Positions 4,532-13,371 of a DNA stretch of 32,709 nucleotides are shown here, one piece after another. How positions within the stretch are numbered: the stretch's first letter is position 1; the number at the start of each line of letters is the position of its first letter. Source of the DNA: Opitutia bacterium (lineage in GTDB: Bacteria > Verrucomicrobiota > Verrucomicrobiia > Opitutales > UBA953); NCBI GenBank assembly GCA_947456525.1, contig CANGRI010000011.1, forward strand, positions 1-32,709. The letters are read 5' to 3'. Under the pieces are notes generated by a model. That model searched no databases. It was not told the origin of the DNA and saw only the letters and a list, made by a program, of their open reading frames with translations. The translations under genes and the position numbers were made by a program.

Positions 4532-5659
4532 TCAGGGCGACGGAGGCAGGCGTACGGCCTTGCGGATATAGGCCGGCACGTCCACGTCCTGTCCGTCGAT
4601 GAAGGTCATCGGGGTGCCGCCGAACAGGCCGCGGCGCATGGATTCTTCCGTCGCGAACTCGAAGATCGGCTGAGCGGGGTCCTCGGCCTTGGCGCCCTTC
4701 TTGGGCTTGGCCGGAGCCTTCGGCGCCGGCAGCGAAGCGCCGAGCACCGAGACTTCGATGCGGTCGCCGAGGGCCGGCTCGATGCGCGCGCAGAGGACCG
4801 TGGAAGTCTCGCCGCCGAAACGCGTGCGGACCGCGGCCACGGCCTCGAAGGCCTCGGTCGAGGTCATCGCGGGACCGCCGGCGACATAGACGAAGAGCGA
4901 GGCGACCTTGGCGACCGCGCCGGGCGCGTGCGCGAGCGGACAGTCGCAGGCCGCGCGGGCGGCCTTCATCGCGGCGCCTTCGCCCTCGCCGACGCCATAG
5001 GCGAAGAGCGTGGGCGAGCCGGGCGTGGAAAGGAGCGAGCGGACCGCGGCGGGATCGACGGCGATGAGCGCGCCGGGCGCGAAGGCCGAGGCGAGTCCGC
5101 GGATGGCGCCGCCGACCCAGTTGTCCGCCGCGGCGAACGACTCGGAGAGCGGAGCGTCGGGCGAGACCTGCTGGAGCAGGAGATCGTTATGCACCACGAC
5201 GAGCCCGTGGCACTTCTGCCCGAGCTTGACCGTGGCGTCGTTGGCCTGACGCATGCGACGTTCGCCTTCGTGCGAGAACGGCATCGTGGCGAAGGAGAGC
5301 ACCGTCGCGCCGGTCTCGGCCGCGAGGCCGGCGACCACCGGTGCGGCGCCGCTGCCGGTGCCGCCGCCGAGGCCGGTGACAAGCACCACGAGCGGCACGC
5401 CGGCGAACAGCCGACGGAGGCCGGCTTCTTCGGACTCCGCGGAAGCGAGCCCCAGCGCGGCTTCGCCGCCCGTCCCCATGCCGCGGGTCTGCGCGCGTCC
5501 GAGCTGTAGGGTCTGCGCGGTGCCGGCGGGCAAGGAACGGGCGTCGGTGTCGAGCAAGGCCACGGCGACCTCGGCCGGTAGCTGCGCCGACAGGCGCGTG
5601 ACCATCGAGCACCCCGCCCCGCCGAGGCCGACCAGGAGGATGGAAGCGGGCGTCGACAT
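4532..5659 (-). CDS. ftsZ: Cell division protein FtsZ (divergent, with degenerate T7 loop)
   Basis: Signature GLGGGTGSGAAPVVA (T4), VGLGGAGCSMV (T1), TRGMGTGGEAALG (T3), HNDLLL (T6), C-terminal RGLF...DVDVPAYIRK; located directly after ftsA. Confidence 0.93.
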   Translation of the reverse strand: MSTPASILLVGLGGAGCSMVTRLSAQLPAEVAVALLDTDARSLPAGTAQTLQLGRAQTRGMGTGGEAALGLASAESEEAGLRRLFAGVPLVVLVTGLGGGTGSGAAPVVAGLAAETGATVLSFATMPFSHEGERRMRQANDATVKLGQKCHGLVVVHNDLLLQQVSPDAPLSESFAAADNWVGGAIRGLASAFAPGALIAVDPAAVRSLLSTPGSPTLFAYGVGEGEGAAMKAARAACDCPLAHAPGAVAKVASLFVYVAGGPAMTSTEAFEAVAAVRTRFGGETSTVLCARIEPALGDRIEVSVLGASLPAPKAPAKPKKGAKAEDPAQPIFEFATEESMRRGLFGGTPMTFIDGQDVDVPAYIRKAVRLPPSP

Positions 5660-5660
5660 C

Positions 5661-6896
5661 TTAGAGGCGGAAGAGCTCCTTGAGCTGGGCGAGGAAACCG
5701 CGCGGGCGCCGCACGGGCGGCGGAGCGTCGGTGATCGCGGCGGTCATGAGGCCCACCACGCCGGCATACTCGGGCTTGCGGAGGGATTCGTTCTCGAAGT
5801 TCGGGACGCCCACGCGGGCGGAGAGACCGGTCACGAGCTGCACCGCCTCGGCCGCATCGGCCAGGCTGGCGGAACCGCCGGTCAGGATGACGCCGGAGGG
5901 GATCATGTTCTGATCAAGCTTCACGGCGTGGCCGGGGAAGATGGCCTCGAGGCGGCGGAGCACGTCCTTGCGCACGAACTCGATCGTCTCCTGGTAGCGG
6001 AGCGAGAGCACCTGCGTGATGGTGCCGCGGTTGAACTGCTGGTCGCCGACGCCCTTGTCGCCGTCCTTCCAGATGGTCTGGTTGACGTCGGTGTCGCGGT
6101 GCATCGCCGAACCGAAGCGCAGCTTCAGGTCCTCGGCCGTCTCGCGGCTGATGCGGAGCGCGACGCTTAGGTCGTTGGTCAGGTGCTCGCCGCCCACGGG
6201 GATCGAGCCCGCGCAGAGGATGTGCTCCTTGTAATAGAGGATCCAGTCGGTCGTGCCGGCGCCCATGTCGATCACCAGCACCCCGCCCTGCTTGTCGGCG
6301 TCGCTGGCGGTGGCGCAGGCCGCGGCGTGCGAGGCCAGGATGAAGTCGCGGACGCGGATGCTCATGCCGTTCACCATCCCGACGCGCATGCGCATGTTGC
6401 CCTCCTCCATCGTCACGCGCCAGAAGTTCACCTCGAGGCGCTTGCCGGCCATGCCGACCGGGTTGCTGACCGGACGGTTGTCCAGCATCGTCGGCTGGCG
6501 CATGTAGAGGATCGTCGCGCGGCCCGACGGCGGTTCGAGGCGCTTGGCCGAGGCGATCGCGTCGGCCACGTCCTTGGCGGTGACCTTGCCGTCGTGCGCG
6601 GGCACGGCGACGAAGCCCTTCACGCGTTCGCCTTCGGCGGCGGGACCGGACAGGGAGAGGTAGACGTGGTCGACGGCGCGGCCGGAACCGCGTTCGATGT
6701 CGTTGACGACCTCATGGACGCACTGCGTGAGCTTCTCGAGGTCGGTGACGGTGCCTTTCACGACGCCGTCGGTGCGGCGTTCGCTGAAGCTGAGCATGCG
6801 GGCCTTGCCGTCGATGATCTGGCCGAGGAGGCTGGCGGTCTTGTGCGTGCCGATGTCGATGACGGCGATGAGGGAAGGAAGGGGCTTGGGGGTCAT
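5661..6896 (-). CDS. ftsA: Cell division protein FtsA
   Basis: MTPKPLPSLIAVIDIGTHKTASLLG; VIDMGAGTTDW; SIPVGGEHLTNDL; C-terminal amphipathic GFLAQLKELFRL. The ATG at 6896 overlaps the ftsQ stop (ATGA). Confidence 0.93.
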   Translation of the reverse strand: MTPKPLPSLIAVIDIGTHKTASLLGQIIDGKARMLSFSERRTDGVVKGTVTDLEKLTQCVHEVVNDIERGSGRAVDHVYLSLSGPAAEGERVKGFVAVPAHDGKVTAKDVADAIASAKRLEPPSGRATILYMRQPTMLDNRPVSNPVGMAGKRLEVNFWRVTMEEGNMRMRVGMVNGMSIRVRDFILASHAAACATASDADKQGGVLVIDMGAGTTDWILYYKEHILCAGSIPVGGEHLTNDLSVALRISRETAEDLKLRFGSAMHRDTDVNQTIWKDGDKGVGDQQFNRGTITQVLSLRYQETIEFVRKDVLRRLEAIFPGHAVKLDQNMIPSGVILTGGSASLADAAEAVQLVTGLSARVGVPNFENESLRKPEYAGVVGLMTAAITDAPPPVRRPRGFLAQLKELFRL

Positions 6897-7876
6897 CGGA
6901 TGGGAGCGGCGGGGGCGGGGACGAGGCGAGGTTCGGGAACGGGAGAGGAGGCGTTCGTGCGATTCTGGATCGACATCTTCAGCACGTAGGCCTGCGCGGT
7001 CGTGCCGGGCCGGCGGAGCAGTTCGTCGACGTTGATGCGCCCGAGCAACGCGAGCTCGTTGCGCCAGTTGGCGGTGGAGAAGACGATCTCGACGAGCGCG
7101 GGCCGGTCCATCGGCTGGGTGCCGGGACGCACGGTGACGCGCAGGTTGGAGCCCGGCGAATCCTCCTGCGCGCCGAAGCAGTCGCGGAGCGAGACCGCCG
7201 ACCACTGCTTGTAGAGGTTCGGATACTGCGTGCGGACGACGAGCAGGAACGGGGCGGCGATCTCGACGCCTTCGATCAGCATCTTGTCGTCGCTGCCGGT
7301 GGCGCGGTAGTCCTGGATCTCGGGCAGGCTGCGGACGGCCTGCTCGGGGTAGCCCGTGCCGGCGAAGGTCTGTCCGTCGGAGGCCACGAGGCGGACCTGG
7401 ATCGGCGCGCTCTTGCCGGACTGGGTCGTGATCCTGGCCACCGCGAGGCGCTCGCGCAGCGAGATCTCGAGCGAGCCGTCGTTACGGCGGCGGACGTCGG
7501 CGGCGACGACCTGGTTGTCCGACTCGAGGTCGGCCTTGATGACGCGCACATCGCGCCCGAAACCATCGGGGCCGTTGGCGACGATCTTCTTCACGAAGTC
7601 GGCGGGCAGGAAACCGTCGGTCTTGAAACGGAGCGCTCCGCCCGCGGGGGCGGAGGTGGCGGATTCGTCGACGGCCCACCAGAGCACGCCGACGACGGCG
7701 GCGAAGAAGATCACCGCGAGGACGGTGGGCAGCTTCGAGCGCACGGCGCGCTTGCGGCCGATTTCGCCCTCGGGGACACGGTTGACGTCCTGCGGGACGA
7801 GCGCGCGCCAATCGCGGTCGGCCGGACCCATGAAGGCGTCGCGGCGTTTGCGGAAGAGGTTGTCGAAGAGGCCCAT
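6893..7876 (-). CDS. ftsQ: FtsQ/DivIB-like cell division protein
   Basis: Cytoplasmic N-terminus, one TM (LPTVLAVIFFAAVVGVLWWAV), POTRA-like region with SLRERLAVARI; position between ddl and ftsA. Confidence 0.75.
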   Translation of the reverse strand: MGLFDNLFRKRRDAFMGPADRDWRALVPQDVNRVPEGEIGRKRAVRSKLPTVLAVIFFAAVVGVLWWAVDESATSAPAGGALRFKTDGFLPADFVKKIVANGPDGFGRDVRVIKADLESDNQVVAADVRRRNDGSLEISLRERLAVARITTQSGKSAPIQVRLVASDGQTFAGTGYPEQAVRSLPEIQDYRATGSDDKMLIEGVEIAAPFLLVVRTQYPNLYKQWSAVSLRDCFGAQEDSPGSNLRVTVRPGTQPMDRPALVEIVFSTANWRNELALLGRINVDELLRRPGTTAQAYVLKMSIQNRTNASSPVPEPRLVPAPAAPIR

Positions 7877-7878
7877 GT

Positions 7879-8802
7879 TCAGCGGCGGACGGGTTGGGCG
7901 GCGCGCGCAAGGGCCGGAGCGGCCATGCGGCGGACGAGGGCGGGGAAGTCGAGGCCGACGCAGGAAGCGCTCTTGGGCATCAGGCTGGTTTCGGTCATGC
8001 CGGGCATCGTGTTGATCTCGAGGAAATAGAACCTTCCGTCAGGCTCAAGGAAGACATCCGCGCGGGCGAAGTCCCGGCAGCCGCAGGCGGCGAAGAGCCG
8101 GGCGGCCGCCGCACCGATGGCGGCGGTCGCTTCCGGGCCCACGGGCGCCGGGAAGCGGTACTCCGAGGCGCCCTTGGTGTATTTGGTCTTATAATCGTAC
8201 ACGCCGGCCAGAGGGACGATCTCGACGAGACCCATGGGCTGGCCGTCCAGGAGACCGATGGACATCTCGCGGCCGCGGAGGCGGCGTTCGGCCATCCATT
8301 GGCCGGAAGCGGGGATCTCGGCCAGGGCCTTGGCCACGGCGGCCTGCCCTTCCAGCATGTAGAGGCCGACGCTGCTGCCCTGGTCCGAAGGCTTGATGAC
8401 GACCTGCTCGCCCAAGGCGGCCACGAGCGCGGCGGCGGCGGGCTTGGCGGCGCCCGCGAAGGCGACCTCCGGGATGGCGGGGACATCGGCACCGCGCATG
8501 GCGCGCTTGGTCGCGACCTTGTCCATGCAGAGGCGGTTGGCGGAGGAGGAACAGCCGGCGAAGGCGATGCCGCGGGCTTCCATCTCGGCCTGGGCGCGGC
8601 CATCCTCGCCCCAGCCTCCATGCAGGACGGGCAGGACGACATGCTTGGCGCCGTCGAGCCAGCCGGGCAGGACGTCGGCCTCGAGCTCGACGAGACGCGA
8701 ACCCGGGAGCGCCGACGCCACGGCCTTGCCGGAGCGCAGCGAGACCTCGCGTTCGGAGGAGAGGCCGCCGCAGAGGACGACGATTTCAGGGACGAAGGTC
8801 AT
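7879..8802 (-). CDS. ddl: D-alanine--D-alanine ligase
   Basis: IVVLCGGLSSEREVSLRSG; VLPVLHGGWGEDG; VIKPSDQGSSVGLY; FLEINTMPGMTETSLMPKSA. The ATG at 8802 overlaps the upstream TGA. Confidence 0.95.
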   Translation of the reverse strand: MTFVPEIVVLCGGLSSEREVSLRSGKAVASALPGSRLVELEADVLPGWLDGAKHVVLPVLHGGWGEDGRAQAEMEARGIAFAGCSSSANRLCMDKVATKRAMRGADVPAIPEVAFAGAAKPAAAALVAALGEQVVIKPSDQGSSVGLYMLEGQAAVAKALAEIPASGQWMAERRLRGREMSIGLLDGQPMGLVEIVPLAGVYDYKTKYTKGASEYRFPAPVGPEATAAIGAAAARLFAACGCRDFARADVFLEPDGRFYFLEINTMPGMTETSLMPKSASCVGLDFPALVRRMAAPALARAAQPVRR

Positions 8803-11075
8803 AGCAGTTCCTTCCATTCGCGGCCGAGGGCGACGATCTCCGGCTGGAGCTCGACGCCTTGGCGCGACTTCACCTCGGCGCGGACGGCGCGCATGAGTTC
8901 GATGAAGTCGGCGGCCTTGGCGTCGCCGGCGTTCACGAGGAAGTTGGCGTGCGTCGGCGAGACGGAGACCGGACCGACGGCGCGGCCCTTGAGCCCGCTG
9001 ACGTCGATGAGGCGGCCGGCCTTGTCGCCTTCGGGATTCTTGAACACGCAGCCGGCGCTGGCTTCGCGGGGCTGGGAGGCGCGGCGTTGCGCGGCCATGT
9101 CGTCCATCCGCGCGCGGATGGCGGCGGGCTCGTCGCGGCCGGCCGCGCGGAGCACGGCCGAGAGGACCACGGAGCCGTGCAGCTGCGGGCAGTCGCGATA
9201 AAGGGCGTCGAAGCTGTCGCGGCGCGCGGCGCGCACCCTGCCCTGCGGCGTCAGCCACTCGATCGACTCCACGACGTCGAAGATCCAGCCGCCCATCGCG
9301 CCGGCGTTCATGCGCAGCGAGCCGCCGACCGTGCCGGGAATGCCTTCGAGGAATTCGAAACCCTTCCAGCCTTCGCGGGCGGCGAAACCGCAGAGCTCCT
9401 TGAGTCGCGTGCCGCCGCCGACGCGCAGACGGCCTTCGCCGAGGTCGGTGACGGCGCCCCAATGGGCCGCGTCGAGATGCAGGATGAGGCCGTCGTAGCC
9501 TTCGTCGGGCACGAGGAGGTTGGAACCGCGTCCGAGGGCGAACCAGCGCAGGTCGAGCTCCGCGGCGGCGCGGAGCAACGTGACGATGTCGTCGACGGCC
9601 GCCGGCTCGGCGTACCAGCGGGCGGCGCCGCCGAGTCCGAGCGTGGTGCGGCGGGCGAGCGGCTCGTTGGCGCGCAGGACGCAATCCGCGGAAAGCCGGC
9701 CGGAGACGAGGTCCGGCAGGTCGAGCGAAAGGATGTCGTCGCCGCGGCGGCGGAGCACCTTCGCGTAGGCTTCGGCGTCGCGCTCGATGTCACCCGCGCC
9801 CACGAAGGCGACGACCGTGTCGGCGCCCTGGGCGAGGCCGTCGAGCAAGGTCGGCAGCGCGCGGCGATCCTCGACGAGGCGATGCGACGAACCGGCCACG
9901 ATCGCGTCGGAACCACCTCCTTCGACCGCGGCTTCGCCCGCGGAATAGACAGGCAGGACCAACGCATGGTCGGCGACCGCGAGGGCGTCGCGGAATTCGC
10001 GCGAGTACTGGCGCGTGCGCGTGTGACGATGCGGCTGGAAGACGACGATGAGGCGGCCGGCGTGCGTCTCGCGGACCCATTTGAGCAAGGCGGCGATCTC
10101 CGTCGGATGGTGCGCGTAGTCGGCGAGCACGCGGAGCCCCGTGCGTTCGAAGAGCACGTCCTGGCGGCGCCGGATGCCGCGCCAGCGGGCGAGCGGCTCG
10201 GCGACAAGCCCGCCGGTGATGAAATGCGTGACCGCGAGCGCCAGCGAGGCATTCGAACGGTTGAACGTGCCCGCGACAGGCAGGTTGAACTGGCCCTCCG
10301 GGAAACGTCCGCCGAGCGAGATCACCGAGGAGGAATGCCCGCCCTGCACGAGACGGAAGGAATAATCGCCGCCCTCGCCGACGCGGATCACCGGGACCTT
10401 GAGTCCGGCGACGAGCCGCTCGAGGCGTTCGTTGCCGACGGGGATCACGACGGCGGTGCGGGTGCGTTCGAACAGCGCACGGAAGACGCCTTCGAGCGCG
10501 GCTTCGTCGCGGTAATAGTCGGGATGGTCCCAGTCGAGGTTCACCGCGACGGTGACATCGGGCGAGAAGGCGCCGATCGTGCCGTCGCTCTCGTCGACCT
10601 CGGCCACGACCCAGGGAGAAGAGGCGGAGGCGCGGGCGGGCGGGAAGGAGGGGTCGCGGAAGAGACCGCCGAGCACGTAACCGAAATCGGCCTCGGCGCT
10701 GGCGAGCGCGGCGACGAGCAGGCCGCAGGTGGTCGTCTTGCCGTGGCTGCCGCAGACGGCGACGAAACGACGCTTCGCGACGGCTTCCGCGAGGAGTTCG
10801 CCGCGGCGCAACGTGCGGACCTCATGGCGCCCGGCGAGCGTGAGCGCGGCGTGGCCGGGCTTCACCGCGCTGGAACGGCCGACGACGGCAGGATGGCGAC
10901 CCGCGGCCCACGGATCGCGCAGCAGCGGGATGTCGGCGTTGGCGAGCTGCAGTTCCATCGGGCTACCCGTCGAATCATCCCAGCCCGAGACGTCCCAGCC
11001 CTCCCCTTTCAGGTAGATGGCGAGCGGACCGACGCCCATGCCGCAGGCGCCGAGCATCCAGGCGGAGGCGCTCAT
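8799..11075 (-). CDS. Fused UDP-N-acetylmuramate--L-alanine ligase (MurC) and UDP-N-acetylenolpyruvoylglucosamine reductase (MurB)
   Basis: Single 758-aa ORF. MurC half: AVCGSHGKTTTCGLL, EVDESDGTI, DYAHHPTEI. MurB half: RRTTLGLGGAARWYAEP, LGRGSNLLVPDEGYDG, GFEFLEGIPGTVGGSLRMNAGAMGG, AGCVFKNPEGDKAGRLID. Confidence 0.93.
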   Translation of the reverse strand: MSASAWMLGACGMGVGPLAIYLKGEGWDVSGWDDSTGSPMELQLANADIPLLRDPWAAGRHPAVVGRSSAVKPGHAALTLAGRHEVRTLRRGELLAEAVAKRRFVAVCGSHGKTTTCGLLVAALASAEADFGYVLGGLFRDPSFPPARASASSPWVVAEVDESDGTIGAFSPDVTVAVNLDWDHPDYYRDEAALEGVFRALFERTRTAVVIPVGNERLERLVAGLKVPVIRVGEGGDYSFRLVQGGHSSSVISLGGRFPEGQFNLPVAGTFNRSNASLALAVTHFITGGLVAEPLARWRGIRRRQDVLFERTGLRVLADYAHHPTEIAALLKWVRETHAGRLIVVFQPHRHTRTRQYSREFRDALAVADHALVLPVYSAGEAAVEGGGSDAIVAGSSHRLVEDRRALPTLLDGLAQGADTVVAFVGAGDIERDAEAYAKVLRRRGDDILSLDLPDLVSGRLSADCVLRANEPLARRTTLGLGGAARWYAEPAAVDDIVTLLRAAAELDLRWFALGRGSNLLVPDEGYDGLILHLDAAHWGAVTDLGEGRLRVGGGTRLKELCGFAAREGWKGFEFLEGIPGTVGGSLRMNAGAMGGWIFDVVESIEWLTPQGRVRAARRDSFDALYRDCPQLHGSVVLSAVLRAAGRDEPAAIRARMDDMAAQRRASQPREASAGCVFKNPEGDKAGRLIDVSGLKGRAVGPVSVSPTHANFLVNAGDAKAADFIELMRAVRAEVKSRQGVELQPEIVALGREWKELL

Positions 11076-12160: not shown

Positions 12161-13371
12161 GCGCGAGCCTCCTTGGCCACGAAGGCGGGTTGGGCCGACG
12201 CGCGGATGCAATTGAGGACGAGCCCGACCATGCAGCCCATGATCACGAGATTGGTGCCGCCATAGCTGATGAACGGGAGCGAGATGCCCTTGGTCGGCAG
12301 CAGGCCCGTCACCACGCCCATGTTGATGAGCGCCTGGAGGACGAGGAAGAGCGTGGCGCCGAGGCAGACGTTGAAGCGGTAGAGGTCCGCCGAATAGCGC
12401 ATCGCGCGGTAGGCGCACCAGAAGATGCCGAGATAGACCGCGGCCACGATCGTCGTCGCCACGAGGCCGTATTCCTCGCCGATCACCGAGAACACGAAGT
12501 CCGTGTGCGCTTCCGGCAGGTAGGCGCGCCCCTGGATGCCGTTGGCCGCGCCCTTGCCGGTGAGGCCGCCGACGCCGAAGGCGACCATGCCCTCGAAGAG
12601 CTGGTAAGCCTCGTCGCCGCGTTTCTCCCACGGCTCGAGGAACGACGTGAAGCGGCGGAGACGGTTGGGCCAGTTAAGGATGAGGACGGTGAAGCCGCTG
12701 AGCCCAATGAGGAAGGTCGGGACGACGTAGGCCCAGCGCACGCCCGAGACCAGCATCATCGTGCCGCCCACCGCGCAGCAGAGGATGATCGTACCGAGGT
12801 CGGGACCGAGCGCGATGAAGCCCGCGATGGTCACCAGCACCGCCACCGGCTTCACGAAGCCTTCGCGGCAGTCGATCCAACCGAGCGGGGTGAAGAGGTA
12901 AGGCTCACGCGCGCTGAGCCGATAGATCGTGAACTTGTTGGGCAACGTGTGCCGCTGCATGCGGGCGAGGACGTCGGAAAGCACGACCACCAGGGCGAGC
13001 TTGCCGAGGTCCGAGGCCTGCAGGCGGAAGAAACCGAAATCGATCCAGCGCCACGAACCGTTCACCGAGACGCCGATGTGCGGGATGCGCGCGAGGAGCA
13101 TCGCGACGCAGGCGCCGCCGAGGATGTACCAGCGCCACACACGCGCCTTCTCGAGGTCGATCCGGAAGAACACGTAGCCGGCCACGATCGCGATCGGCAC
13201 GTAGGCCAGCTGGCGATAGAACGCCGCGGTGCGGTTGCTCGACGAAAGCGAGATGCCGGCGCTGTACTGCACCACCAGCCCGAACAGCGCCAGGGACAAG
13301 GCGAGCAGCAGGATGCCCCAGGAGTACCCACCCAGGGCTCCCGGACCTTCCTGCTTCTCCTTGATGACCAT
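12157..13371 (-). CDS. ftsW: FtsW, SEDS-family peptidoglycan glycosyltransferase
   Basis: Polytopic; GLTGKGAANGIQGRAYLPEAHTDFVFSVIGEEYGL; LLPTKGISLPFISYGGTNLVIMGCMVGLVLNC. Confidence 0.95.
   Translation of the reverse strand: MVIKEKQEGPGALGGYSWGILLLALSLALFGLVVQYSAGISLSSSNRTAAFYRQLAYVPIAIVAGYVFFRIDLEKARVWRWYILGGACVAMLLARIPHIGVSVNGSWRWIDFGFFRLQASDLGKLALVVVLSDVLARMQRHTLPNKFTIYRLSAREPYLFTPLGWIDCREGFVKPVAVLVTIAGFIALGPDLGTIILCCAVGGTMMLVSGVRWAYVVPTFLIGLSGFTVLILNWPNRLRRFTSFLEPWEKRGDEAYQLFEGMVAFGVGGLTGKGAANGIQGRAYLPEAHTDFVFSVIGEEYGLVATTIVAAVYLGIFWCAYRAMRYSADLYRFNVCLGATLFLVLQALINMGVVTGLLPTKGISLPFISYGGTNLVIMGCMVGLVLNCIRASAQPAFVAKEARA

Follow-up and report, generated by a model that had tools for sequence, protein, structure and literature searches.

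The window, by which we mean the whole stretch of 32,709 nucleotides analysed here, carries an ftsZ gene on its minus strand at positions 4532..5659. It encodes a protein of 375 aa and, judged by open reading frame, Pfam and PDB matches, is the sole tubulin-superfamily gene that we found in the genome. The translation passes the Pfam cut-offs for Tubulin (PF00091, 99.5 against 33 bits) and FtsZ_C (PF12327, 31.5 against 27 bits) and matches 51 distinct PDB FtsZ sequences, the best at 2.5e-44; membership of the FtsZl1/Tubulin_2 family (PF13809) was rejected at 18 bits, below the cut-off of 27. An AlphaFold2 model has the FtsZ fold (pLDDT 87.6, pTM 0.79), its top PDB matches are all FtsZ (target-normalised TM 0.88-0.93) and the closest structure is Staphylococcus aureus FtsZ with GDP-BeF3-Mg (target-normalised TM 0.88).

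The neighbouring genes, all on the minus strand, form a dcw cluster. Directly upstream of ftsZ lies ftsA (5661..6899, Pfam FtsA and SHS2_FTSA; its start is approximate, the listed reading frame running to 7205), followed by a reading frame without a Pfam match that we assign to ftsQ from its position (6893..7876), by ddl and a murC-murB fusion, which make up the remainder of the local cluster (7879..11075, Pfam), and, further upstream, by a gene of the ftsW/rodA family (12202..13311, Pfam). The murC-murB fusion itself occupies 8799-11075; such a fusion is also reported to exist in Verrucomicrobium spinosum. The order ftsQ-ftsA-ftsZ, described as normal in the original prediction, holds in the window and in all 27 related loci carrying the three genes, and near-identical loci come from freshwater Opitutae/Opitutales assemblies. 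The identification of the gene as the orthologous FtsZ of the dcw cluster is supported at the level of sequence, and it is most likely the organism's real, essential FtsZ.

Two parts of the protein that had been predicted to be intact are indeed so. The residues of the nucleotide pocket are present in the alignment, among them the tubulin signature GGGTGSG (5348..5368, minus strand), and the C-terminal peptide of the FtsA-binding type, DVDVPAYIRK (4559..4588, minus strand), has four positions, D358, D360, P362 and R366, that are invariant in 56 sequences. R135 (5255..5257, minus strand) aligns with E. coli R142, an arginine whose equivalent bridges to the gamma-phosphate (PMC8936486), and is kept throughout the genus.

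The T7 (synergy) loop and the start of helix H8 lie at 5039..5077 on the minus strand, where translation of 5077-5039 within ftsZ gives PGALIAVDPAAVR; the loop reads ALIAVDPAAVR. Through this region the protein aligns without gaps to the FtsZs of both Mycobacterium tuberculosis and E. coli, and its residues are therefore A207, D209, P210, A212 and R214 in E. coli numbering, that is, N207A, F210P and D212A, with D209 and R214 kept. The corresponding minus-strand codons are 5062-5060 for A207, 5054..5056 (GAT) for D209, which is D202 of the protein itself and the sole acidic residue left in T7, 5053-5051 for P210, and 5045..5047 (GCG) for A205, which stands where the aspartate D212 is missing. 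The canonical motif NxDFxD is incomplete, since of N207, D209 and D212 the second alone remains. An alignment shift bringing Asn or Asp into position 207 or 212 was rejected, there being no gap and no acidic residue nearby. The A-V-D-P-A-A reading from which this work started, with alanine for N207 and D212 and with D209 retained, was thus exact, and alignment to E. coli FtsZ finds T7 altered as it described; it overlooked F210P and two changes on the T2/H2 surface that faces the T7 loop of the neighbouring subunit (5537..5551, minus strand; contact roles from PMC8936486). There D37 replaces E. coli N43 and R41 replaces Q47, whereas D39 corresponds to the conserved D45.

The altered loop type is common to all 42 FtsZ records of the same genus that we aligned. 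D209 and P210 are invariant in these, position 212 is alanine in 40 (valine and serine once each) and position 207 is alanine in 25, proline in 16 and serine in one. The genus also retains R142, D45 and the tubulin signature alongside D209, and every member has D43 in place of N43. Codons vary synonymously (GAT or GAC for D209, and four alanine codons at 212), which shows that selection maintains the residues.

Most of the FtsZ sequences compared come from metagenome assemblies, and our names for groups above genus level are inferred, the order being taken as Opitutales. In this order, D209 is kept with no acidic residue at 212 in 117 of 129 FtsZs; three of the others have both aspartates, two have an acid only at 212, six have neither and one has D209 with Glu212 (one further row, with no sequence at the T7 loop, was excluded). 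Additional members gave the same D209-only loop in five of five readable cases, a sixth not covering the loop. Typical loops of Opitutaceae are GLINLDFATLRQAF, and Opitutaceae without D212 retain N43 and N207 unchanged. Elsewhere in the class the pattern is reversed: in all 28 FtsZs sampled from sister orders (14 plus 14 more) D209 has been lost to Gly, Thr or Ala and position 212 is Asp or Glu, as in GLINVGLDDLM. Sister-order sequences without D209 (L179-L188 and L286-L299) usually carry an extra acid at 211 (GLDDL), a possible substitute. The sister orders sampled include family f33, whose genomes contain additional tubulin genes like those of Prosthecobacter and which, on that ground, we presume to be Verrucomicrobiaceae. 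Other families of the phylum keep both aspartates in 14 of 32 genomes, and all 60 controls (30 Pseudomonadota and 30 Bacillota) keep N43, D45, Q47, R142, N207, D209, F210 and D212.

In an FtsZ tree built with the T7 and T2 columns left out, the order forms one clade (SH-aLRT 99) and the window's genus forms another with its sister genus g5 (98). Since the order is monophyletic at this support, loss of D212 is old and order-wide; the few order lineages that carry D212 do so through regain or retention. The replacement of N207 by Ala or Pro and of F210 by Pro maps to the stem of the window's genus and g5, and on this mapping N207 and F210 were lost after D212. What had been put forward as a peculiarity of one gene therefore divides in two: the absence of D212 belongs to the order at large, and only the changes at 207 and 210 are special to the window's genus and its sister. 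For the class as a whole, it is quite possible, though we propose it tentatively, that the T7 aspartates have been lost reciprocally, the order keeping D209 only and its sisters D212 only, and that either half suffices or fast treadmilling is unneeded. General divergence of verrucomicrobial FtsZ is already known, and Pilhofer 2008 is said to contain a comparison of division genes. In the open literature that could be searched, coverage of which is partial, we found no prior report of T7 aspartate loss or of reciprocal loss in Verrucomicrobiota, and within those bounds the reciprocal loss is apparently new.

We think it probable that the organism has a single working orthologous FtsZ, the composite GTPase site of which has been reduced stepwise, giving slow hydrolysis and a scaffold-like Z-ring. 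First, as its distribution shows, D212 gave way to Thr, Ser or Ala in the order. N207 and F210 were then replaced on the stem of the genus and its sister genus, alongside the change of N43 to Asp on the facing subunit surface. With an intact pocket, GTP binding would be retained, and head-to-tail filaments would be anchored to FtsA through the kept C-terminal peptide. Hydrolysis would be slow and would depend on D209 and R142, the catalytic residues still present, as point mutants elsewhere suggest, and the Z-ring would be mainly a scaffold with slow turnover. By analogy, slow or altered GTP hydrolysis is plausible for the window FtsZ: E. coli FtsZ D212A retains ~7% GTPase activity (PMC8142252), and E. 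coli cells with extra D212A and FtsA formed and completed septa (PMC4383033). In S. aureus FtsZ, D210 (E. coli D209) swings, positioning the catalytic water, D213 (D212) and R143 (R142) shape the active site, and N208 (N207) binds K+ and is also in contact with Q48 and D46 on the adjoining subunit (PMC8936486). N208L, D210N and D213N suppress S. aureus FtsZ assembly (PMC8936486), and since N208L and D213N each affect assembly and not hydrolysis alone, results from point mutants cannot be carried over straightforwardly. In so old a lineage, normal hydrolysis may have been restored through other residues. D209 may also owe its conservation to capping a helix and not to catalysis, because in the AlphaFold2 model helix H8 starts directly after it at P210, placing a proline in the first turn.

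Several other explanations have to be set against a single, slowly hydrolysing FtsZ. The source is a fragmented metagenome assembly, such as might yield a T7 change through faulty sequencing, assembly or alignment, yet the same residues occur in dozens of independent assemblies with synonymously variable codons, and the alignment is gap-free; we regard an artefact as extremely improbable. The sequencing error at 5055-5070 that had been allowed for is excluded by the recurrence of the loop in independent assemblies, 42 same-genus FtsZ records among them. A second catalytic FtsZ was also suggested by the original prediction; such an FtsZ, or a tubulin, might co-polymerise with the window FtsZ, like plant FtsZ1 with FtsZ2. 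Room for one is left by a genome that is 64.6% complete and by two congeneric assemblies with two ftsZ contigs each, but our searches gave one Tubulin match in the window's genome and one in each of the congeners that are 97-99% complete, and both copies in the doubled assemblies carry the altered loop, so the idea finds no support here and we consider it very improbable. The doubled assemblies (G029 and G037) are probably mixed strains, because both copies have the altered loop.

Planctomycetes and Chlamydiae divide without FtsZ, and the window's lineage might be heading the same way, with its ftsZ a decaying remnant. Four families of the order with genomes of 0.9-1.0 Mb (92-95% complete) have no detectable FtsZ or FtsA and keep FtsW/RodA: in G084, G102, G106 and G111 (f7, f25, f27 and f28) an order-specific profile found no FtsZ, no FtsA was found either and two FtsW/RodA were present in each. 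This suggests that FtsZ has been lost within the order, making these members candidates for FtsZ-free division inside Verrucomicrobiota. G274 (f11, 1.3 Mb, 98% complete) also lacks FtsZ and FtsA, both of which its congener G088 has; as ftsZ and ftsA adjoin, this absence could be a contig gap. Absence from incomplete congeners was not accepted as loss, two of them having yielded pieces of FtsZ with a better profile. Family f4 has strongly eroded FtsZs, several GTP-site motifs being affected in L098-L101 (for example GGGFAGG, and HND changed to LDD or CDD) in open frames of ~400 aa. In genus g2 of the window's own family (L074, L076, L077, L080-L082, L092 and L093) GGGTGSG has become GRGTGSG or GHGTGSG, and most members have Ser for D45 and for R142, leaving a nucleotide site more altered than that of the window. 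Against decay in the window's own genus, the median dN/dS of ftsZ is 0.11, and over the same 90 pairs it is 0.107 for ftsZ, 0.097 for ftsA and 0.072 for sufS, with no relaxation seen in ftsZ relative to ftsA; the reading frames are uninterrupted, 134 of the 375 sites do not vary across 40 genus sequences, the FtsA-binding peptide and the gene order are retained, and V. spinosum, which belongs to a sister order, cannot do without its FtsZ (PMC12283558). With a dN/dS of about 0.1, like that of ftsA, ftsZ in the window's genus is under purifying selection and not decaying, and a remnant gene seems to us improbable.

The strongest challenge to slow turnover is a rebuilt GTPase site, in which near-normal hydrolysis persists because the lost T7 carboxylate and contacts have been replaced, for example by D43 (with R47) on the nucleotide-bearing subunit, or by D211 in the sister orders. 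All genus members have D43 for N43, the S. aureus counterpart of position 43 holds an Mg-bound water (PMC8936486), and D209-less sister orders have mostly gained D211. Over the tips of the tree, N43 and N207 are both lost in 82, both kept in 63 and mixed in 29, but the tree-aware association is p = 0.09 for N43 with N207 and p = 0.23 for Q47 with N207, and in seven independent pairs on supported branches N43 and N207 do not change together. In Opitutaceae, moreover, D212 is absent and N43 and N207 are both in place; D43 is therefore not required to tolerate the loss of D212. Coupled change of T7 and the facing T2/H2 surface was favoured by raw counts but reached no significance in tree-aware tests (p 0.07-0.48), and the independent-pairs tests had just seven pairs to draw on. 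Compensation across the interface by D43 or R47 is possible, and a site rebuilt to near-normal activity strikes us as rather unlikely.

Rapid turnover of FtsZ, powered by GTP, is held to be a central feature of bacterial division, and its T7 aspartates are said to be conserved between species. A class in which one of the two is seemingly missing, while FtsZ remains under selection, offers natural experiments on the role of each aspartate and on the slowest turnover that FtsZ can afford. The class may also contain intermediate stages on the way to dividing without FtsZ, as Planctomycetes, Chlamydiae and, apparently, some tiny-genome members of the order do.

The FtsZ of V. spinosum, from the same phylum, is reported to diverge to an unusual degree at positions that are conserved elsewhere (PMC1845146). 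FtsZs related to it have, in our alignments, lost D209 and kept D212, the opposite of the window's order; a long C-terminal extension is a further difference. Accelerated ftsZ evolution in Methylacidiphilum infernorum, divergence of the Prosthecobacter and Methylacidiphilum FtsZs and, in a reviewer's words, a non-functional Lentisphaera FtsZ are all mentioned in the accessible portion of PMC2474590, in which we found no T7 analysis for Methylacidiphilum or Lentisphaera. Candidatus Thiosymbion oneisti likewise has a natural FtsZ whose GTPase activity is low and for which no polymerisation was observed in vitro (PMC8953583). In plants, the GTPase activity of FtsZ1 falls to ~15% when its T7 aspartate is mutated in D275A (PMC8142252), although FtsZ1 and FtsZ2 are a two-protein system whereas the window organism has one FtsZ. 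Close parallels are E. coli D212A and D212N and B. subtilis D213A, which lose the same T7 aspartate and keep D209 and N207, like most of the order; such mutants form stable filaments and hydrolyse GTP slowly (PMC8142252, PMC12754632, PMC8079713, PMC4383033), and with B. subtilis D213A beside wild type Z-rings are thick and partly condensed while division continues (PMC8079713). However, these laboratory proteins are engineered and stood beside wild type in the cited cell studies, whereas the change in the window is natural, fixed and borne by the only FtsZ, and in the window's genus, unlike in the mutants, N207 and F210 have gone as well.
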